A DNA stretch of 64,000 bases, from contig NZ_PGCK01000012.1 of NCBI RefSeq assembly GCF_021023085.1, positions 1 through 64,000 of the forward strand, written 5' to 3'. Shown piece by piece: positions 39,392-49,562 of the stretch (position 1 is the first letter of the stretch; each line of letters starts with the position of its first letter). This DNA comes from Methanooceanicella nereidis. GTDB lineage: Archaea; Halobacteriota; Methanocellia; Methanocellales; Methanocellaceae. The notes beneath the pieces were generated by a model. It was given only the letters and a program-made list of their open reading frames with translations. It made no database searches and was not told the origin of the DNA. The position numbers and the translations under genes are program-made.

Positions 39392-39739
39392 TTAAAGGGC
39401 CGCTGTTATCCTATCCTTGTTCTTCTTGACCTCGTATCTGATCCTGCCCAGGTTCGCCCCGGGCTCCGCTACTATGGCCAGGATCTCGTTTTCGGTGACG
39501 AGAGATAACATTATGGGTCCGTTTTGAAGCTCTACAAGCACCTGCTCGAAGTTGCCCTTTCCAAGCTCTATGCCCATTGCTTCGGACGTACCGACACTGG
39601 TTGAAGCCATAGCCCCAAGCGCGTCCACGTCCATGGTTATGTTTGAAACGTGCTCTATTATGAACCCGTCACGCCCCAGGATCGCTGCGGCGCTTACACC
39701 CTCGACCTTGATCAGGTCGCCTAAGATCCTCTTTAACAT
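39392..39739 (-). CDS. Roadblock/LC7 (MglB-like) protein
   Basis: A 115-aa single roadblock/LC7 domain covering the whole protein: ILGDLIKVEGVSAAAILGRD, then DALGAMASTSVGTSEAMGIE, then EILAIVAEPGANLGRIRYEV. That is the five-strand, two-helix pattern of MglB-like proteins. Its ATG overlaps the 3' end of the hydrogenase large-subunit gene by seven bases, which ties the roadblock proteins to the hydrogenase in one transcription unit and probably in translation. It could form homodimers or pair with the roadblock domain of the next protein. Role in regulating or positioning the hydrogenase is a hypothesis. Confidence 0.88.
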   Translation of the reverse strand: MLKRILGDLIKVEGVSAAAILGRDGFIIEHVSNITMDVDALGAMASTSVGTSEAMGIELGKGNFEQVLVELQNGPIMLSLVTENEILAIVAEPGANLGRIRYEVKKNKDRITAAL

Positions 39740-41142
39740 CTTTTAACCTCACGAATGACATTACCCTCATTATCTACTACTCTCAACATAATAGGCATTC
39801 TGCCTATGGCATGAGTGGCACAGGATACGCACGGGTCATATGCCCTGACTACCATCTCTATCCTGTTCAGGACACCCTCGCTGACATCCTCTCCGTGTAT
39901 AAGTTTCCTGGCCGCCTGAAGCACACCTTTGTCTATCGCATCGTTATTATGTCCTGTGGCGACTATAAGGTTAGCCTTTGTGATGAATCCCTGGTCGTTC
40001 ACTGTGTAATCATGTATGAGCGTGCCTCTCGGCGCCTCGACGACTCCCACGGCTTTAGTGTTCTTTACTGCGCCCGTCGCATTCCTGATGTTCTTTTCGC
40101 AGACTGACGAGTCTGCCAGTATCGACAGGGCTTTCTCGCTTATGGCCATGTACTCTATCACCCTCGCGAGATGATAAAGGAAAGGCTGCTGTGCTATGCG
40201 GCCGAACTTTGCCCTGAACTCGCCCAGCATCCTGTCAGCTTCGGGCGTGCCCATGGAATCCACCACGTTGATGCGCGCAAGCGGACCGACCCTGTAAAAC
40301 CCGCTTCCTTTCTTAAGCGACGTAAACTTCATGTACGAGTACGGCTCAGCTCTTTCCACGATATAGCTCGCATAGTCCTTTCCGGGGAACTCGCAGAGCT
40401 GAGCGCCGTCCGCGCCTACCGCCCTTATGTTCCCGTCATACGGGTCAAATTTCCCGTCTTTGGTCAGGCCTATAAAGTCGGATTGCACTATTCCGACATT
40501 ATTGACCAAATCGGAGTACTCTTCAAACTTCGGCAGAACGAAATCCCAGCTCGCTTTAGCGATCTCCACCGAACGCTTTGCAAAGCCTTCCAGCTCGTTC
40601 TTCTTTTCGGGAGATATTGTGAATGACATACCTCCGGGCACGGCAGATACCGGATGGATGGCCTTCCCTCCGACGTCTTCTGTGATCCGCTGCCCTATCT
40701 TGCGCGCCTCTATCGCCATCTTTGCCAGGTCCCGGTTAGCTTTTACCAGGCCTGCGACGTTCCTTAGCGCCGGGTTTGAGTCCGGCCCAAGGATGAAGTC
40801 GGGCATTCCCAGGTAAAACAGGTGCAGGGAATGGGAGCTGATGAGCTGTCCTGCCAGCAGGAGCTCTCTTAGCTTGTGGGCGGTCGCAGTTATCTGGGCC
40901 CCGTATATCTCGTCGACCGCCTTCGCGGAAGCGAGATGGTGGGCCGTCGGACAAATGCCGCAAATGCGGGGCGTTATCCTCGGGGCTTCTTCCACGGCAG
41001 CGCCTTCAAGGAACTTTTCAAAGCCCCTGAGCTCCGTAGCATGGAAATGGGCTCCGGACACCTCCCCTTTGTCGTCCAGGTTTACGGTGACGCTGGCGTG
41101 GCCCTCTATTCTGGTGATAGGTGAGATAGTTAGCTTCTTCAT
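39733..41142 (-). CDS. [NiFe] hydrogenase large subunit, group 3 (Mvh/F420-nonreducing-like)
   Basis: The 469-aa catalytic subunit. The first Ni-Fe ligand motif is RICGICP near residue 60 and the second is DPCVSCATH near 437-445, so all four active-site Cys residues are present. A 26-residue tail after the His suggests maturation by a hydrogenase endopeptidase. The start MKKLTISPITRIEGHASVTV is classical. Resembles MvhA/F420-nonreducing and related cytoplasmic group 3 enzymes. No MvhD-like gene is nearby; instead a ferredoxin and a V4R-like protein precede it. ATG overlaps the small-subunit stop (ATGA). Confidence 0.92.
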   Translation of the reverse strand: MKKLTISPITRIEGHASVTVNLDDKGEVSGAHFHATELRGFEKFLEGAAVEEAPRITPRICGICPTAHHLASAKAVDEIYGAQITATAHKLRELLLAGQLISSHSLHLFYLGMPDFILGPDSNPALRNVAGLVKANRDLAKMAIEARKIGQRITEDVGGKAIHPVSAVPGGMSFTISPEKKNELEGFAKRSVEIAKASWDFVLPKFEEYSDLVNNVGIVQSDFIGLTKDGKFDPYDGNIRAVGADGAQLCEFPGKDYASYIVERAEPYSYMKFTSLKKGSGFYRVGPLARINVVDSMGTPEADRMLGEFRAKFGRIAQQPFLYHLARVIEYMAISEKALSILADSSVCEKNIRNATGAVKNTKAVGVVEAPRGTLIHDYTVNDQGFITKANLIVATGHNNDAIDKGVLQAARKLIHGEDVSEGVLNRIEMVVRAYDPCVSCATHAIGRMPIMLRVVDNEGNVIREVKRC

Positions 41143-42056
41143 AGGTGTCTCTCCTTGATGATGTCTGGTATCTTCGAGACTGACTTGTTCTCCATTATCT
41201 TGCTTCCCATGACGAACGGGTAAATGGTGTGCGGCACATCATAGATCTCTTTCTCGATCTCTTTCTGCGGCAGCTCTGTCAGGTGCTGTATCCTCATGAC
41301 CAGTATATTATACAGGTCTCTGCAGGGCTCTCTCAACACGTCGAGGGACGGCCCGCCGCATCCATGGCACGGTATCCCGTGCTCTGTGCAGACTGCGCCA
41401 CATCTTCCGAACGTCACCGAGCCCAGGCATAAGTAGCCCTGGCCAAGGAGACACTTACCTTCTTCGGGGATGCCTTCGTTCCTTCTTTTGACCTTCCAGT
41501 CCTTTACCTGTCCCATGGTCCTCTTGCATTCCGAACATACGGATTTTTTGGACAGTTCGGGCACGTTCCCGTCCAGCAGCGGGAGCAGTATCTTTCTTAA
41601 AAAGACTTCCTTTGGCGGGCATCCTGTGATATAATAATCGACCTTTATTATGTCGCCTACCGCATACCCTCTGTAGAGCAGGTCAGGCACGTCCTCTTTC
41701 GGTATCTCTTTCTTGGCAAGCGCGGGGTCCGTAAAGACTCCTTCAAGGATCTCGTTCCTGCTGTGTATGATCGAAAGGCCGGATATTCCTCCGAAACAGG
41801 CGCAAGTACCGTAGGCAATGACTATCTTCGCTCGCTGCCTGAGCTTTTTGACCCTTTCCATGTTCTCCTTGTTGCGTATGGCCCCGCCGATGATCGCGAC
41901 GTCGATCTCCTCGGGCGGCTCTTTTACGTCCATCAGAATGGGCGAGTATACCAGTTCTACCTTATCCAGAAGCTCGAGAATGTCCTCGTGAAGGTCCAGG
42001 ATCGACATATGGCATCCGGCACATGATGCCAGTGGTTCCGTTGCTAGCTTTAACAT
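41139..42056 (-). CDS. [NiFe] hydrogenase small subunit, group 3
   Basis: The 305-aa electron-transfer subunit partnering the large subunit at 39733. The proximal cluster ligands are in CAGCHMSILD (near residue 12), GTCACFGG and ITGCPP. More Cys residues occur in CSECKRTMG and in the C-terminal stretch CLGSVTFGRCGAVC, then PCHGCGGP, consistent with further [4Fe-4S] clusters as in MvhG-type subunits. It follows the V4R-like gene after a six-base gap and overlaps the large subunit by four. Electron partner is probably the ferredoxin encoded at 42590. Confidence 0.9.
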   Translation of the reverse strand: MLKLATEPLASCAGCHMSILDLHEDILELLDKVELVYSPILMDVKEPPEEIDVAIIGGAIRNKENMERVKKLRQRAKIVIAYGTCACFGGISGLSIIHSRNEILEGVFTDPALAKKEIPKEDVPDLLYRGYAVGDIIKVDYYITGCPPKEVFLRKILLPLLDGNVPELSKKSVCSECKRTMGQVKDWKVKRRNEGIPEEGKCLLGQGYLCLGSVTFGRCGAVCTEHGIPCHGCGGPSLDVLREPCRDLYNILVMRIQHLTELPQKEIEKEIYDVPHTIYPFVMGSKIMENKSVSKIPDIIKERHL

Positions 42057-42062
42057 CCCGCC

Positions 42063-42590
42063 TCACCTCAATATCAGCTTCTTCAGGCATGTGTTAGGAC
42101 CGACATGGACGATCTCTAATTTGCCTCTTTTTCCAGTTATCTCCTCAACGGCCCCGACCATGTAGCCATATAGGCTCTGGCACAGGGGTCCTTTTTGCGG
42201 CATGCCCTCTCTGCGGAGGGTCTGCCTTACCAGGCAATCCCTGAACACAAGATAAATGAAAGTCTCGCCATTTTCCGTAATGATGTAGCTGTCCTTATCT
42301 TTGGGCTTCCAGAGCTCGAAATTATATTGCCTTCCGAGGATGTCGGATAGCTCCTTCAGGGCTTTCTCCACATTGTCAGTCTTGGGGAAGTATTTAGCAG
42401 TCTCATGACCCATCTTCATTCCTGCCCTGTACACTACGGCGTTAGCGCCGCCCCTGGCGATCTCTTCCAGCGACCTTATGATGGTCGCGTTCAAGACCAT
42501 GATGCCGTGCAAAGCTTCCTCATAGTCCATGATGTTGCCTTCACAGTGCAAAGGCAGCTCTTCCGGCTTTACGACAGATGCCTGGGACAT
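42063..42590 (-). CDS. V4R-like (4-vinyl reductase domain) protein in the hydrogenase operon
   Basis: A 175-aa protein whose C-terminal half fits the V4R domain, a small-ligand sensor/carrier module: RDCLVRQTLRREGMPQKGPL, then CQSLYGYMVGAVEEITGKRG, with a last Cys in GPNTCLKK. It has three conserved-looking Cys residues. ATG 42590 is chosen because AAGGAGGT lies seven bases upstream, one of the strongest ribosome sites in the window. It overlaps the ferredoxin stop by one base. V4R proteins accompany some hydrogenases and metabolic regulators; here it may sense a hydrophobic ligand or take part in assembly. Function not known. Confidence 0.75.
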   Translation of the reverse strand: MSQASVVKPEELPLHCEGNIMDYEEALHGIMVLNATIIRSLEEIARGGANAVVYRAGMKMGHETAKYFPKTDNVEKALKELSDILGRQYNFELWKPKDKDSYIITENGETFIYLVFRDCLVRQTLRREGMPQKGPLCQSLYGYMVGAVEEITGKRGKLEIVHVGPNTCLKKLILR

Positions 42591-42835
42591 TATATGAACC
42601 TCCTTAACATTGAGCATACTTCCAGGTCGACGTAAAGTCTCCTCGATAAGTAGATATCTCTATGCTCGATCGCGTTTGACGGACAGATCTCATGACATGA
42701 TAGGCAGGCCATACAATCCTCCGGATTTATAACAGTTGATACGCCGTCCTTAAGCTCATAGACTTTCATAGGACAGTCATGGACGCATAGCCCGCAGCCT
42801 ATGCAAACCTCTTTATCTATTAATATATTTACCAT
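42590..42835 (-). CDS. 2[4Fe-4S] ferredoxin
   Basis: An 81-aa ferredoxin with two cluster motifs: CIGCGLCVHDCP (residues about 10-21) and CMACLSCHEICP (about 41-52). The C-terminal 25 residues are an extension. ATG 42835 has GAGGT eight bases upstream; a TTG at 42850 would add five residues. It begins the minus-strand hydrogenase-roadblock-MinD operon and is the likely electron carrier for the hydrogenase. Divergent from the group 4 hydrogenase operon. Confidence 0.9.
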   Translation of the reverse strand: MVNILIDKEVCIGCGLCVHDCPMKVYELKDGVSTVINPEDCMACLSCHEICPSNAIEHRDIYLSRRLYVDLEVCSMLRRFI

Positions 42836-43331
42836 CGTCCCGTACCTCAACGCTTTTAGCTAAATACCCCTGATTAGTAAGGAATTATTTTTATGTTACT
42901 TGAATATATACGTATCTCTTATAATCGAAAATATTTTTCCCGGATACCATAAATTATATATAATTTTAGAGCAAACATATGTTAAATTTGGAATAAATAC
43001 CGTTAAAAACATATTATGTCTAATAATTTGACTTTATTTTTGATTCACGCATTTGCCTGTTCAGTTAACGGCTGCTTTCCAAAAGTAATATGCTTGATAG
43101 GCGACACAATAATAAATGATCTCGTTCAGCCTCTGTAAGAAATACGGCTATCGCCAGGTATGGTAAGTGCCCTGCCCGGCGAATGTTCAGGAATAAACAT
43201 TATATATCGCCTGGGTATAGATATAATACCTTTAAAATATGGTAACGCGATGGCATTCTTGTATCAAAAGTGCCATGGAGAAAATATATCGTTCGACAGA
43301 TGAAAATAACAAGGTTAACACTGGGGGAGAA
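42836..43331. promoter_or_regulatory. Divergent promoter region between the two hydrogenase operons
   Basis: About 495 bp with no gene. For the minus strand, CGTATATATTC (read on that strand, 42902-42912) is a plausible TATA box with a leader of about 40 nt. For the plus strand, TATATATC (43201-43208) and GATATAATA (near 43220-43228) are candidates. Directly before the first is an inverted repeat, AATGTT-N8-AACATT (43182-43201), a possible operator. The shared region would allow both hydrogenases to be regulated together. Confidence 0.5.
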
Positions 43332-43778
43332 ATGACTGAAGTGATAGTCCACGACCCCGCATTATGCACTGGCTGCAGGCAATGCATGACGGCGTGTTCT
43401 TTTAAAAATTATAAGACCTATAATTATAGCTTATCGCTCTGTAAAGTGATAGAAGACCCCCGCGGGGGTTTTGTCAGGGTACACTGCCAGCACTGTAAGG
43501 ACCCGATGTGCGTGGCGGCATGCCCGAAAAAGGCGATCACCAAGGATGAGAAAACGGGCTATGTGACGATCGACCAGATGCTGTGCGTCGGCTGCAAGTC
43601 GTGCATGTACGCATGCCCCATATCCATACCACAGATGAGCAAGGGCCTCAAGGTAATGGTCAAATGCGACATGTGCGAAGGGGATCCTGCTTGCTTAAAA
43701 GTATGCTCTGCAAAGGCGATCAAGCTGATGACCAGGGTAGAAGGAACCGGACTGGTCAAGGAGATGGAGAAAAGATGA
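43332..43778 (+). CDS. Four-cluster polyferredoxin (HycB-like)
   Basis: A 148-aa protein with four [4Fe-4S] motifs: CTGCRQCMTACSF, CQHCKDPMCVAACPKKAI, CVGCKSCMYACP and CDMCEGDPACLKVCSAKAI. This is the layout of HycB/HydN/CooF-type electron-transfer subunits. I chose ATG 43332, with GGGGGAG just upstream; the longer frame from 43239 adds a region with no similarity to ferredoxins. It is the first gene of an eight-gene operon with overlapping junctions and would feed electrons to or from the group 4 hydrogenase or the HdrB-like protein. Confidence 0.88.
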   Translation: MTEVIVHDPALCTGCRQCMTACSFKNYKTYNYSLSLCKVIEDPRGGFVRVHCQHCKDPMCVAACPKKAITKDEKTGYVTIDQMLCVGCKSCMYACPISIPQMSKGLKVMVKCDMCEGDPACLKVCSAKAIKLMTRVEGTGLVKEMEKR

Positions 43779-44047
43779 AAGAGCTGTACCCCTGGCGTAA
43801 GCCTGTAAAGATATCGCTTCCGACATCAGTGAAGCCTCAGCTTATAAGGCATTTCAGCATCGGGCTGCTGTATCCTGTTACGGATGAACTTAAGGAAGCG
43901 AGGGAAAAAGCCGGCCTCGACCCGATACCTCCGACGGCTCACAGGTATAAGGAAGGTGCCGAGGACATCAGGAAGATCATCAAGGCGATGGGCGTTGACC
44001 GGAACATAGGGCTCGACCTGGAAAAGATGGAGTATAGGTTCAAATGA
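43775..44047 (+). CDS. Small soluble protein of the group 4 hydrogenase operon, unknown
   Basis: A 90-aa protein with no Cys and no membrane helix, containing KPQLIRHFSIGLLYPVTDEL and ending in a charged helix. The ATG overlaps the ferredoxin stop (ATGA) and its own stop overlaps the HdrB-like start, so it is translated in the same unit. Its position just before an HdrB-like gene recalls HdrC, but it lacks the two ferredoxin clusters of HdrC, so I do not assign it. Probably a structural or adaptor subunit. Confidence 0.7.
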   Translation: MKELYPWRKPVKISLPTSVKPQLIRHFSIGLLYPVTDELKEAREKAGLDPIPPTAHRYKEGAEDIRKIIKAMGVDRNIGLDLEKMEYRFK

Positions 44048-44919
44048 CCGTGAAATATTCACATTTCCTTGGCTGCGTCATGCCTACAAAGATGCCGTGG
44101 GCGGAAGCGGCGATCATGAGGACGCTACCGAAGCTCGGGGTGGATATAGTATATCTGGAGAAGTCCGGATGCTGCCCGAGGGCAGGTGTATGGATATCCG
44201 TCGACCGTAGGGTCTGGCTGACCCTGGCGTCATATAACCTGCTTCAGGCAGAAGAGCAGGGCAGGGATGTCATGGTATCCTGCAACGGCTGCTATGTCAC
44301 GCTTTACGAGGCCAATAAGGTACTTAATGAGGAGCCGGAGACGCTGGAAGAGGTCAACAGGTATCTTGCGGCCGCAGGAAAACATTACGACGCGAACATA
44401 CGCGTCAGGCATTTCCTCGAAGTACTGTACGAGGACGTCGGTATCGACAGGATCAGGAAAGAGAGCAAGAAGCTTAACATCCGCGTCGCCATACACCCCG
44501 GTTGCCATATGAGAATATTCGCGGACGGAAAGCTCGTAAGATACTTTACAGAGCTGATCGAGGCGCTGGGCGTGGAGATAGTGCCGTACGGCCTGGAACA
44601 GATGTGCTGCGGATTACAGTCAAACCTCGCCGACAGGCAGTTCGCGACCTATGAGCGGGCCAAGAAAAAGATGGACGCGATCATGAAGACTGACGCGGAC
44701 GCGCTCGTTCTCGTGTGCGCCGGCTGCTACGACCAGTTCGAAAGAGTGACCAACACGCTCAGAAAGAATGATAATTATGACTTTAACGTGCCAGTGATAC
44801 ATCTGGCGGAGCTCCTTGCCGTGTCCTTCGGCATGAAGCCGGACGAGTTCGGCATGCGCTACATGAGGACAGCGCCTGTGGACGGGCTCATAGAAAAACT
44901 GGAGAAAAGCGTAAAATGA
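44044..44919 (+). CDS. HdrB-like protein with two CCG domains
   Basis: A 291-aa protein of the CCG (cysteine-rich) family to which heterodisulfide reductase subunit B belongs. First CCG domain: LGCVMPTK, SGCCPRAG and SCNGCYVTL. Second: HPGCHMRIF, MCCGLQSN and CAGCYDQF. Both domains keep the C-x(n)-CC-x(n)-CxxC pattern that in HdrB binds noncubane [4Fe-4S] clusters and cleaves the CoM-S-S-CoB disulfide. It lies inside a membrane hydrogenase operon instead of an hdrABC operon. A disulfide or other thiol-linked substrate is plausible, but which one is unknown. Confidence 0.85.
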   Translation: MTVKYSHFLGCVMPTKMPWAEAAIMRTLPKLGVDIVYLEKSGCCPRAGVWISVDRRVWLTLASYNLLQAEEQGRDVMVSCNGCYVTLYEANKVLNEEPETLEEVNRYLAAAGKHYDANIRVRHFLEVLYEDVGIDRIRKESKKLNIRVAIHPGCHMRIFADGKLVRYFTELIEALGVEIVPYGLEQMCCGLQSNLADRQFATYERAKKKMDAIMKTDADALVLVCAGCYDQFERVTNTLRKNDNYDFNVPVIHLAELLAVSFGMKPDEFGMRYMRTAPVDGLIEKLEKSVK

Positions 44920-45185
44920 AACCATATTTCATCATAGCCATATTCATACTGGTCACCAGCGTTATAGGGGTGGTCCTGTCGGAAGAGATGGTCATGCTGT
45001 TCCTGTTCGCAGAGCTAGCTTCGCTCGTGTCTTTCTACATGTTCTTCTCGGTCATCATCCCGTCATTGTTCCCCGAATATAAAAAAGTGGAAGAGAACTT
45101 CAATTGTGGCGCCAACGACCTTTACCTTGATCCGGAGGAGGCCTACGGGCCCAGGACACCTTTCGGAGGTGTGAAAAATAAGTAA
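44916..45185 (+). CDS. Small two-helix membrane subunit (NuoK-like?)
   Basis: An 89-aa protein with two membrane helices (about 4-22 and 29-50); the second contains an in-membrane Glu (LFLFAELASLVSFYMFFSVI), as NuoK/HyfE-type subunits do. A hydrophilic tail of about 35 residues with NCGANDLYLDPEEAYGP follows. The ATG overlaps the HdrB-like stop. The Glu suggests possible involvement in ion translocation, but the protein is shorter than NuoK and I keep the assignment open. The next gene appears to start inside its 3' end. Confidence 0.65.
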   Translation: MKPYFIIAIFILVTSVIGVVLSEEMVMLFLFAELASLVSFYMFFSVIIPSLFPEYKKVEENFNCGANDLYLDPEEAYGPRTPFGGVKNK

Positions 45186-46749
45186 CGATTATGATCTGAC
45201 AGTATGCCGGATATTGCCGTCCGAGGTCATACCGGCGGTAAAAGACCAGCTCTCGAAAGGGGGCAGAATGATATATGCGTCAGGGGTAGACGAGGGTGTC
45301 AACGGCATTAAAGTAGACTATTATTTCGGCTTTGACCATTTGCACAGGGGTAAGCATACCATACTCAGGACGTACCTTGACAGGGAAGACCCCGAGGTCG
45401 AGTCAGTGACGCAGATCACTCCCCAGGCAGACTGGTCGGAAAGGGAATTGATAGAGTTCCTTGGCGTGAAGGCAAAAGGGCACCCGGACCCCAGGCACTT
45501 ATGGCTGCCCTTGAACTGGGAGAAGCTTCGGCTGACGGACGAGGAGAGCAAAGCCGAGGCCGCAAAGTTCAAACAGGAGCCAGTCGACAACATCCTTAAT
45601 CTGCCGGTCACAGTGGTCCCATACGGGCCTTATCATCCTGCGTTCATCGAGAGTAATTACTTTAAGATGGCCGTGGAGGACGAGGTCGTAAAAACCGCGG
45701 ACCTTAAGCTCGGTTTCAATCACCGCAGCGTGATCAAGCTTATGGAAAGGCGAGACTACTATAAGGACGTATACCTCGCGGAGAGGATATGCGGCTTCTG
45801 TAACGCTCATCAGTCCATCACGTTCGCCATGACGGCCGAATGCATAGGCAATGTGGAGATCCCTCCGAGAGCAGGGCTGATCCGAACGCTATTGTTCGAG
45901 CTTGAAAGGATACAGAGCCACCTGCTGGCAATAGGCCTGGTAGGCGACTTGATGGGCTTTAAGACAATGTTCATGCACTGCTTAAGGATCAGGGAAGACA
46001 TCCAGGACTGCCTTGAGCTCATATCGGGACAGCGCGTCACGCACGGGCTGGGCACACTGGGAGGCGTGAGGAGAGACATCACTGCATGCCAGGCTGATTT
46101 TGTGCTTTCGAAAATCAAGGCGGTGAAAAAGTCATCCGACGAGCTATTCGATCAGGTGCTGGCAAACGATGTTCTGCTGACCAGGCTTGAGGGCGTGGGA
46201 AAGCTTTCCCATGACGATGCAATAATGCTGGGCGCAGTCGGGCCCACGGCCAGGGGCAGCAACTGGAAGATAGATGTCAGGAAAAACAGCCCGTATGCAG
46301 CATATGAAAATCTTGACTGGGAGATCATAACGGAGACTGACGGAGACTGCCTGGCAAGGCTCAAAGTGAAGATGAGAGAGGTCCTGATGGCCCTTCATAT
46401 CATAGAGCAGTGCTGTGAAAAGCTTAAGTCGACGTCGGGCAGCATCGTGGCGGCGGTGTCTAAGATGCCGTGCGCGGAGGCGATATCCAAATCAGAGGCT
46501 CCGAGGGGAGAGTTGTTGTACCACGTATCCTCTGACGGCACGAACACACCCGAATATGTGCGTATAAGGACCCCGACGTTCCGCGTGGCACACATTATGC
46601 TAAAGCTGATCCACGGCGTATACGTGGGAGACGTCCCCGCGATAATCGGCTCGATAGACCCATGCTACTCATGCACGGACAGGGTCACGGTCATCAGAGG
46701 GGGAAAGGGCGAATCGGTGGAGATACGTTCGCTGGGAGAGAATAAATGA
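45178..46749 (+). CDS. Group 4 [NiFe] hydrogenase large subunit, fused NuoC-NuoD type (HycE/EchE-like); apparent AUA start
   Basis: About 523 aa. The N-terminal 130 residues form a NuoC/HycE-type domain; the rest is the catalytic subunit. The Ni-Fe ligands are present in RICGFCNAH and DPCYSCTDR, so this is an active-type hydrogenase and not a NuoD-like remnant. The first standard start, TTG 45214, lacks a ribosome site, while the same frame extends upstream to 45175 and ATA 45178 lies six bases after GGAGGTG (45165-45171). From ATA the protein starts ISNDYDLTVCRILPSEV. Overlaps the upstream gene by eight bases and the next gene (46746) by four. Confidence 0.85.
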   Translation: MSNDYDLTVCRILPSEVIPAVKDQLSKGGRMIYASGVDEGVNGIKVDYYFGFDHLHRGKHTILRTYLDREDPEVESVTQITPQADWSERELIEFLGVKAKGHPDPRHLWLPLNWEKLRLTDEESKAEAAKFKQEPVDNILNLPVTVVPYGPYHPAFIESNYFKMAVEDEVVKTADLKLGFNHRSVIKLMERRDYYKDVYLAERICGFCNAHQSITFAMTAECIGNVEIPPRAGLIRTLLFELERIQSHLLAIGLVGDLMGFKTMFMHCLRIREDIQDCLELISGQRVTHGLGTLGGVRRDITACQADFVLSKIKAVKKSSDELFDQVLANDVLLTRLEGVGKLSHDDAIMLGAVGPTARGSNWKIDVRKNSPYAAYENLDWEIITETDGDCLARLKVKMREVLMALHIIEQCCEKLKSTSGSIVAAVSKMPCAEAISKSEAPRGELLYHVSSDGTNTPEYVRIRTPTFRVAHIMLKLIHGVYVGDVPAIIGSIDPCYSCTDRVTVIRGGKGESVEIRSLGENK

Positions 46750-47675
46750 TAGACATCGCATGGATAAATCCGATCATTGCCTTTATCATGGGCATCGTTC
46801 TCTCTTTCAACCTTAGAAAGATATTCGCCAGGGTACAGTCTCGCAGAGGCCCTTTACTGTGGATGCCTAAAAGCTGGTATGGCATCAACCGCAGTAAATT
46901 TCTTCAGCCGCTATATGATATACTTAAGCTATTCAGTAAAAAGACCATAATACCCCATACCGCGACTCCTATGTTCATCATAGCTCCGATAGTCGCCCTT
47001 ATTTGTGCCATACTGGCGACGCTGTTCGTCCCTGTCGCAGGCATCTGCATGGACTACACCTTCAGCCTTGTGGTGCTATTCTACCTGCTGATAGGCGTGA
47101 CTCTCTTCGTCATAGTCGGAGGCACCTCCAGCGCTTCTCTGTTCGCGGCGATAGGCGGTGTCAGGGAAGTGGAGCTGATGCTGGCGAACGAGATACCTTT
47201 CATACTTGGCACGTTCGCGCTGGCGATATCGTATGACACGTTATCGATCAAAGAGATGATGGGCTTTAACCTGCTGACCAATCCCTTTGCTGCGGCAGCA
47301 GTATTCATCGCGATACTGGTCAAGCTGCATATAAAGCCGTTCGACATACCCGAGGCGGACTCCGAGATAGTCGGAGGGCTGACCACCGAGTACAGCGGAA
47401 AGCTGCTCGGGGTGCTTGAGATAATCAAACTGATCATGCTGTTCGTCCTGTCAGCGCTGTTCGTCGACCTGTTCCTGTGGGTACCGTCCACCGGGATCGT
47501 ATCATGGATCATATTCCTGGCGGCGATACTGTTCGTGGGGGCCGTCATAGGCTTTATTCATTCATTGTTCGCCCGCTTCAGGATCGACCAGGCCACATGG
47601 TGGCTGTTCAAGATATCGACAGTTATATCGCTCGTGGCTGTAGGGCTTGCGATCGTCGGGAGGTTCCTGCTATGA
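46746..47675 (+). CDS. Group 4 hydrogenase membrane subunit (NuoH/EchB/HycD-like)
   Basis: A 309-aa membrane protein with about eight helices. Family signatures are RVQSRRGP in the first cytoplasmic loop and FDIPEADSEIVGGLTTEYSG in the central loop, which contacts the hydrogenase module and carries conserved acidic residues near the quinone/proton path of complex I. It anchors the hydrogenase subunits to the membrane. Overlaps both neighbours by four bases. It is the only large membrane subunit in the operon: no NuoL/M/N antiporter-type subunit is encoded. Confidence 0.92.
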   Translation: MIDIAWINPIIAFIMGIVLSFNLRKIFARVQSRRGPLLWMPKSWYGINRSKFLQPLYDILKLFSKKTIIPHTATPMFIIAPIVALICAILATLFVPVAGICMDYTFSLVVLFYLLIGVTLFVIVGGTSSASLFAAIGGVREVELMLANEIPFILGTFALAISYDTLSIKEMMGFNLLTNPFAAAAVFIAILVKLHIKPFDIPEADSEIVGGLTTEYSGKLLGVLEIIKLIMLFVLSALFVDLFLWVPSTGIVSWIIFLAAILFVGAVIGFIHSLFARFRIDQATWWLFKISTVISLVAVGLAIVGRFLL

Positions 47676-48346
47676 AGAACCCTGTCAAAGCGTTTGCAGG
47701 CTTAATCGCCAACTTCTTCCGAAAGCCGGTCACCATCGAGGAGAACTACGGTTTCCTCTCGGACACGTTCAGATGGCTCCCGAGAAGGGACGATGAAAAA
47801 TGCACGGGCTGCGGCGCATGCTATGAGAGATGCTCGAGCGGCGCGACACATATCCACGACGTACAGGAAGAGCGTACCGTGTGCATAGACAGTCTCAACT
47901 GCATATTCTGCGGAAGATGTGCTGACGCATGTCCGGAATCCGCCTTAGAGCTTTCATTCGAGCCAAAGACGGACGATGAAAAGAAGGTCCGTGAAGAGAT
48001 GTTCGACATCGAAGGCGGCGAGTGCCCGCATTCCCTTATACGCCCGAAGGAGAACAAAGAAGCGTCACTGGAGTATCTGCGCAGGATAAGCCTGGCGCAT
48101 GAGCAGGGTGAGGACGGGCCGTGCACGAAGACAATGCTTCCGCTACAGCGCTGCAGCGTGTGCGGAGAGATCATGCCTGAAACGTCGAAGCATCTTGAGA
48201 TAGTGAAAAAGAGGGCGCTGGAGAACCTTCAGCCCGAGACCGCGAAGATCGTCGAGGAGGATATGAAGCTGTATCTTACCGCATGTGTCTCATGCAGGCA
48301 AAAATACAGCCTTATCTGGAACACGCACCCGAGGAAGTACATATGA
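47672..48346 (+). CDS. Group 4 hydrogenase ferredoxin subunit (NuoI/EchF/HycF-like) with extra Cys domain
   Basis: A 224-aa subunit. Two [4Fe-4S] motifs of the NuoI type are present: CTGCGACYERC (near 46-56) and CIFCGRCADACPE (near 76-88). The C-terminal 135 residues are an extension not seen in EchF/HycF, including CSVCGEIMPETSKH and CVSCRQKY, which look like a zinc-ribbon pair. ATG 47672 overlaps the NuoH-like stop (ATGA); the longer frame from 47477 is out of register with the overlap pattern and lies in the previous gene. Transfers electrons between ferredoxin and the small subunit. Confidence 0.88.
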   Translation: MKNPVKAFAGLIANFFRKPVTIEENYGFLSDTFRWLPRRDDEKCTGCGACYERCSSGATHIHDVQEERTVCIDSLNCIFCGRCADACPESALELSFEPKTDDEKKVREEMFDIEGGECPHSLIRPKENKEASLEYLRRISLAHEQGEDGPCTKTMLPLQRCSVCGEIMPETSKHLEIVKKRALENLQPETAKIVEEDMKLYLTACVSCRQKYSLIWNTHPRKYI

Positions 48347-48750
48347 GCGTATTAAAAAAATCCCCGTGGATATACCACGCCCACGCAGGCGGATGTAACG
48401 GCTGCGACATAGAACTGCTGGCATGCATGGGCCCGAGATACGACCTCGAAAGGCTGGGGATCAAGTGGGTGTCTTCTCCGCGTTATGCGGATATATTACT
48501 TGTCACAGGCCCGGTGCCGCTGCACACAAAGCCTTTCCTGGAAAGGGTGTATGCGCAGACCCCCGAGCCAAAGCGAGTCATAGCCATGGGCGCATGCGGA
48601 TGCTCATGCGGTGTTTTTATCGATGACGAAAATTATTCGATAGCAGGCCCGGTAGAGAAGATCATTCCAGTCGATGTGAAAATACCCGGCTGTCCGCCCA
48701 AGCCTGAGGCAATAATCGACGGCATACTAAAAGTGCTGAATAAGATGTGA
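48343..48750 (+). CDS. Group 4 hydrogenase small subunit (NuoB/EchC/HycG-like)
   Basis: A 135-aa subunit that carries the proximal [4Fe-4S] cluster. Ligand Cys residues are in GGCNGCDIELL, GACGCSCG and PGCPPKPEAII, the pattern of NuoB/EchC. ATG 48343 overlaps the upstream stop by four bases. It is the last gene of the operon. The downstream 569 bp are AT-rich and untranslated as far as I can see. Confidence 0.92.
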   Translation: MSVLKKSPWIYHAHAGGCNGCDIELLACMGPRYDLERLGIKWVSSPRYADILLVTGPVPLHTKPFLERVYAQTPEPKRVIAMGACGCSCGVFIDDENYSIAGPVEKIIPVDVKIPGCPPKPEAIIDGILKVLNKM

Positions 48751-49319: not shown

Positions 49320-49562
49320 ATGTTTAAAAAACTTATTGCCTCAGGTGCAGCAGTACTGGCTACGGCCATAACCATGAATCCCGCAGAAGCTTTCTTCTTT
49401 GGGTCCAGGTTCTTTGGCCTCGGGTTCGGCAGCTTCGGGTTCGGTTTCCCGTTCTTCGGTGGGTTCGGTTTCCCGTTCTTCGGTGGGTTCGGTTTCCCGT
49501 TCGGAGGATTAGGGTGCGGAATACCGTTCGGTGGCTGTGGGTTCGGGTTCCCGTTCTGGTAA
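49320..49562 (+). CDS. Secreted Phe/Gly-rich repeat peptide
   Basis: An 80-aa protein with a good signal peptide (MFKKLIASGAAVLATAITMN then PAEA, probable cleavage before FFFG). The mature part is almost only Phe and Gly with some Pro, Leu and Ser: SFGFGFPFFGGFGFPFFGG and similar. Two Cys residues occur near the end. The DNA has a 24-bp tandem repeat (49437-49503). AAGGAGGT (49301-49308) is a strong Shine-Dalgarno, with a slightly long spacing of 11 bases to ATG 49320. It stands alone. Such composition suits a self-assembling or adhesive surface peptide; this is inference. Confidence 0.7.
   Translation: MFKKLIASGAAVLATAITMNPAEAFFFGSRFFGLGFGSFGFGFPFFGGFGFPFFGGFGFPFGGLGCGIPFGGCGFGFPFW
49437..49503 (+). 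repeat. 24-bp tandem repeat inside the Phe/Gly-rich gene
   Basis: GGGTTCGGTTTCCCGTTC followed by TTCGGT occurs at 49437-49460 and 49461-49484 without change, and a third partial copy ends near 49503. Each unit encodes GFGFPFFG. The exact identity suggests recent slippage or strong constraint. Confidence 0.85.

Follow-up and report, generated by a model that had tools for sequence, protein, structure and literature searches.

A putative disulfide-reducing hydrogenase of Methanocellaceae whose antiporter subunit is probably encoded in trans

The eight-gene operon at positions 43332-48750 of the window (the whole stretch of 64,000 nucleotides that was analysed) is a further copy of Drh, a putative disulfide-reducing hydrogenase of Methanocellales that is credited to Lyu & Lu 2015 in the citing papers through which we know it (PMC6046458, PMC9723716), and the antiporter that is missing from its gene cluster is probably encoded in trans, beside a hycI-type maturation protease gene with which it is conserved. 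In M. conradii, Drh is reported to be upregulated during syntrophic growth in coculture (PMC6046458), and it has been grouped with Ehd and Ehe as the HdrB-interacting hydrogenases, the large subunits of which cluster together (PMC9723716). Because an ion antiporter is missing, Drh was there regarded as an enzyme that probably builds no ion gradient and that probably reduces CoM-S-S-CoB with H2 without energy conservation. That HdrB is encoded within a group 4 operon and that the antiporter gene is missing are thus both points already made in PMC9723716. New here are the HdrC identity of a small protein of the operon, the probably trans-encoded antiporter with its hycI neighbor, and a second family with a Drh-like complex; a trans-encoded Drh antiporter is not mentioned in the literature that we found, in which Lyu & Lu 2015 is represented by the papers that cite it.

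Results

The operon is real and had been read almost entirely correctly in the initial annotation, which was made from the sequence alone. All eight genes were recovered at the coordinates given there, on the plus strand, and the near-universal overlaps of four bases were found at six of the seven junctions. The sole exception is the junction between the two-helix membrane protein and the large subunit, the start of which is TTG 45214 or possibly CTG 45193, which aligns with the ATG of the large subunit in M. paludicola (G002). Family searches returned the subunit set that had been named, i.e. a polyferredoxin, HdrB with two CCG domains, fused NuoC and NuoD, NuoH, NuoI, and NuoB. The host genome (G000, 3.19 Mb) contains mcrA and is that of a Methanocellaceae methanogen, and its closest relatives (G001, G002, and G003) belong to the same family. 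As these three genomes carry all eight genes in identical order, at 65-66% identity of the large subunit, the operon is not a chance arrangement, and the expectation of a conserved order elsewhere was borne out. Downstream, at 49320-49562 (+), lies a gene for a Gly/Phe-rich low-complexity protein of 80 residues that has a signal-peptide-like start (MFKKLIASGAAVLATAITMNPAEA) and no family match.

The assignment to Drh rests on several features. Both CxxC Ni-Fe ligand motifs and homologues of NuoB, NuoC, NuoD, NuoH, and NuoI identify a group 4 [NiFe] hydrogenase, an HdrB gene lies within the cluster of this Methanocellales genome, as it does in G001-G003, and the window contains no PF00361 match. 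The published Drh shares the host family, the combination of HdrB with a group 4 hydrogenase, and the lack of an antiporter in the cluster, and it occurs in M. paludicola, whose large subunit is among the Methanocellaceae orthologues with which that of the window groups. Together with the large subunit of G053, a genome of another family, the four Methanocellaceae proteins form one clade of five Drh large subunits, with support of 100/100. When genome_contigs was searched with the large subunit, the only matches were from Acidobacteria (33-41%), and the two that were placed in the tree both fell outside the Drh clade.

The first gene (43332..43778) encodes a HycB/HydN-like polyferredoxin of 148 residues with 17 cysteines and about four [4Fe-4S] sites (Fer4_11, E 4.6e-17), which is conserved in the four Methanocellaceae and in G053. 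The product of the second gene (43775..44047), 90 residues long, had been described as a Cys-free small protein; it indeed has no cysteine, but it is not anonymous, since it is recognized as the C-terminal part of HdrC (TIGR03290, E 3.5e-9; 8rvu_c, E 9.2e-9). It aligns with residues 95-144 of the 144 residues of the TIGR03290 profile, which is the last third of HdrC, and with residues 127-181 of the solved HdrC chain 8rvu_c; its orthologues are 77-83% identical in Methanocellaceae and 49% in G053. Judged by these alignments, HdrC is present in the operon solely as a C-terminal module, and the N-terminal domain with the two [4Fe-4S] clusters is missing. The electron-carrying role of HdrC has presumably passed to the adjoining polyferredoxin. 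An AlphaFold model of the module, built from just four sequences, reached a pLDDT of 52, which is too low to search by fold. The third gene (44044..44919) encodes an HdrB of 291 residues (TIGR03288, E 1.7e-72; 5odc_B, E 2.8e-65), in which both five-cysteine CCG motifs for noncubane clusters are intact: the ten cysteines C11, C43, C44, C80, C83, C154, C188, C189, C225, and C228 are invariant and align with those of regular HdrB and of 5odc_B.

The fourth gene (44916..45185) encodes a membrane protein with two hydrophobic segments and an invariant Glu in helix 2, for which there was no Pfam match. When its profile was compared with 4936 mostly spurious ORFs, antiporters ranked first, every time in the TM4-TM5 region that includes the conserved Glu, and MrpA models (E 3.5e-4) match the protein at the same place, while a profile-profile comparison with antiporters gave a probability of only 9-16%. 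It is possible that the protein descended from the TM4-TM5 hairpin of an antiporter, an idea that stays alive only because the TM4-TM5 position is consistent.

The hydrogenase subunits proper follow. The large subunit (45214..46749) carries a fused NuoC domain (PF00346, E 1.5e-64; PF00329, E 7.6e-18), its best match among solved structures is HycE (7z0s_E, E 2.4e-73), and its Ni-Fe ligands RICGFC and DPCYSC are intact, as had been noted initially; DPCYSCTDR is followed by a tail of 21 residues. The remaining genes encode a NuoH-like membrane subunit of 309 residues (46746..47675; PF00146, E 5.5e-57), a HycF-like NuoI subunit with two [4Fe-4S] motifs and a C-terminal CxxC...CxxC (47672..48346; Fer4_7, E 7.8e-10; NF009053, the formate hydrogenlyase Fe-S subunit, E 8.2e-15), and a NuoB-like small subunit (48343..48750; PF01058, E 2.2e-33; NF005012, 133.8 bits at a cut-off of 116).

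The initial annotation had stated that there is no antiporter subunit, and this is correct for the operon but apparently not for the genome. A NuoL-like subunit encoded elsewhere, which had been named as an observation that would speak against the annotation if the protein co-purified, does exist at the genome level as a co-conserved orphan antiporter beside hycI. Only two PF00361 antiporters were seen in G000, both on contig C3, namely EchA in the ech operon and a stand-alone protein of 479 residues (C3:271811-273250), with the hycI-type maturation protease gene 10 bases downstream. As NuoK/MrpC was not found in G000 and only these two PF00361 proteins were, we saw no Mrp or Nuo/Fpo complex of which the orphan antiporter might be a part. 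The antiporter has orthologues in all four Methanocellaceae (60-70% identity) and a counterpart with 56% identity in G053, the next best protein among 37 other relatives having 36%. Its adjacency to hycI is found in all four Methanocellaceae with gaps of 0-10 bases, within a conserved neighborhood of IlvE, antiporter, hycI, acylphosphatase, and GAPDH. It keeps the TM5 Glu, the TM7 Lys, and the TM12 Lys; in G001, Ser takes the place of the TM8 Lys. In the finished genomes it is encoded tens of kb away from Drh, and in G000 it lies on a contig other than that of Drh.

The protease gene gives an indication of which hydrogenase is concerned. E. coli HycI removes a C-terminal tail such as that of the window's large subunit, and the Methanocellaceae Drh large subunits all carry tails of 17-28 residues, as HycE does, whereas all Ech large subunits checked end exactly at DPCIGC[IF]DR, with nothing to cleave. 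HycI therefore suits Drh and not Ech. The hycI product scored 28.7 bits by direct scan (cut-off 23), although it was not listed by the PF01750 search of the genome; the two proteases that this search listed in G000 are FrhD, encoded in the Frh operon, and a HupD-type protein. With these as the other proteases found, Drh is the most likely client of the hycI gene that adjoins the antiporter gene. In G001, HycI could be shared by a further, Hyf-like enzyme; the group 4 cluster of this enzyme (L124:6144-13590; G001:C1:764-772 kb) contains two antiporters and lies near a molybdopterin oxidoreductase, and its large-subunit ORF is devoid of the DPCxxC motif.

These data have to be weighed against the published view, in which Drh is a membrane-attached, non-coupling H2:CoM-S-S-CoB reductase without an antiporter, so that the orphan would serve Ech or function alone. 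This is what is stated in PMC9723716, the operon is without an antiporter in all four genomes, and Ech is present in the Drh-bearing genomes too. However, Ech already has EchA and does not need HycI, relatives that have an Ech-type large subunit but no Drh, such as G015 and G355, have no orthologue of the orphan antiporter, and the one other Drh lineage also has the antiporter. We regard the published view as unlikely on these grounds.

The other lineage emerged from a sample of 394 genomes of the phylum, in which, at strict thresholds, the same five genomes encode both a full-length large subunit of the Drh type and the orphan antiporter, and none of the other 389 has an antiporter orthologue. 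The naive probability of this co-occurrence is 1e-11, which is not a fair test because the five genomes represent only two independent lineages, the Methanocellaceae and G053. In the same 394 genomes, the HdrC module has one full-length homologue outside Methanocellaceae, again in G053. The Drh-like complex of this 61%-complete MAG is distributed over separate contigs: polyferredoxin, two-helix protein, large subunit, NuoH, NuoI, and NuoB are encoded together on one, the HdrC module and HdrB next to hycI on a second, and the antiporter on a third. These three contigs have a GC content of 0.49-0.52, close to that of stretches of two congeners (0.52-0.53), and the antiporter orthologue is absent from the five congeners of G053 that were searched. 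On G053:C107 (L108:3501-6686), a YcaO-TfuA pair precedes the HdrC-module and HdrB genes; YcaO-TfuA proteins of this type thioamidate McrA in methanogens. Six other genomes have large-subunit matches that score below Drh. The neighborhoods were read for five of them, all except G388, and those of G061, G146, G170, G355, and G284 proved to be common group 4 clusters that include an antiporter and, in the stretch read, neither HdrB nor the HdrC module.

Discussion

Taken together, gene content and conservation lead us to favor, with some reserve, the reading that Drh is a cytochrome-free, ion-translocating H2:CoM-S-S-CoB oxidoreductase that is split over two loci, with the antiporter encoded in trans. 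The operon would supply the cytoplasmic arm, the NuoH subunit, and the small membrane subunit, and the 479-residue antiporter would complete the membrane arm, while the hycI-type protease encoded next to it would mature the large subunit. H2 would be split at the NiFe site, and the electrons would pass via NuoB, NuoI, and the polyferredoxin to HdrB, for which the HdrC-like C-terminal module may be the docking site and which would reduce CoM-S-S-CoB to the two thiols. This exergonic reaction could be coupled to ion translocation through NuoH and the antiporter without cytochromes, as has been proposed for Ehd. Gene content, intact metal ligands, the relationship of the small protein to HdrC, the joint conservation of Drh and the antiporter, and the antiporter-hycI pair are observed; that the antiporter assembles with Drh, which substrate is reduced, in which direction the complex runs, and that it pumps ions are what we infer. 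For the Methanocellaceae as a whole, the fuller version, in which the in trans antiporter of the cytochrome-free ion-pumping oxidoreductase comes with its own protease and the two-helix subunit is perhaps a reduced TM4-TM5 hairpin, appears to us evenly balanced between right and wrong. The coupling of H2 to disulfide reduction at the membrane had already been suggested in the initial annotation; the suggestion fits the HdrB cysteines, the HdrC-like partner, the methanogenic host, and the published Drh proposal, and it is for the last reason not new. HdrD was found in the Methanocellales genomes examined in PMC3146512 and HdrE was not, which leaves room for a cytochrome-free membrane heterodisulfide reductase.

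The complex might also run in the opposite direction, with reduced ferredoxin, or thiols plus ferredoxin, driving H2 formation and HdrB serving as an electron entry. The polyferredoxin and NuoI could take electrons from ferredoxin, and group 4 enzymes such as Ech and Hyc often evolve H2. Disulfide reduction is nevertheless favored by the HdrB/HdrC-like pair and by the fact that Methanocella lives by consuming H2; in addition, the formation of H2 from CoM-SH and CoB-SH is strongly uphill as judged by the redox potentials, and the flavin subunit (HdrA) that a confurcation would need is not encoded, which makes this direction improbable. That HdrB reduces another disulfide or thiol-linked substrate seems similarly improbable: CCG proteins serve many substrates, sequence alone cannot name the one used here, and an unknown disulfide was suggested for Culexarchaeia (PMC9723716), but the best curated matches are the CoB-CoM HdrB and HdrC, and with mcrA the host has the heterodisulfide.

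If Drh is an ion pump, the published statement that it does not conserve energy would be wrong, and an antiporter that is missing from a cluster should not be taken as absence of ion pumping. To our knowledge, the soluble bifurcating HdrABC is the only route of heterodisulfide reduction ascribed to cytochrome-free hydrogenotrophic methanogens. With an antiporter, Drh would provide a second, energy-conserving route of heterodisulfide reduction in Methanocellaceae, which thrive in paddy soil at very low H2. The prediction is directly testable in the cultured species M. paludicola, M. arvoryzae, and M. conradii.

Drh shares traits with several known systems. Ehd of Methanomethylicia and Ehe of Culexarchaeia also combine a group 4 hydrogenase with HdrBC, but by their published description the antiporter gene is part of the cluster, whereas in the genome studied here it lies on another contig; Ehe has SdhA, CdhA, HdrA2B2C2, and GcvH in addition (PMC9723716). 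Hyc, the formate hydrogenlyase (hydrogenase 3), shares the NuoCD fusion, the polyferredoxin, the HycF-like NuoI, and the HycI-type processing tail, but the window operon has an HdrB/HdrC module instead of formate dehydrogenase, and it contains no HycC gene. Ech, which is also present in G000, has homologues of the same NuoB, NuoC, NuoD, NuoH, and NuoI, but it differs in its separate NuoC and NuoD, in the EchA-type antiporter gene within the operon, in the tail-less large subunit, and in forming a separate clade. In M. paludicola, a second Ech-type large subunit (L084:8897-9976; G002:C1:513.9 kb), for which the stretch read contains no adjacent match to NuoB or NuoH, is encoded a few kb from mcrA. 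The soluble MvhADG-HdrABC complex likewise passes electrons from H2 to the heterodisulfide via HdrC and HdrB, but Drh is without HdrA and MvhD, has HdrC as the C-terminal module only, and includes membrane subunits. Upstream of the window operon, at 39733-42850 on the minus strand, lie divergent genes for the A and G subunits of an F420-non-reducing (Vhu/Mvh-type) hydrogenase and a ferredoxin, accompanied by a protein of 184 residues without known family; MvhD was not seen beside them, and similar Vhu/Mvh-type hydrogenase genes adjoin Drh in G001 and G003.
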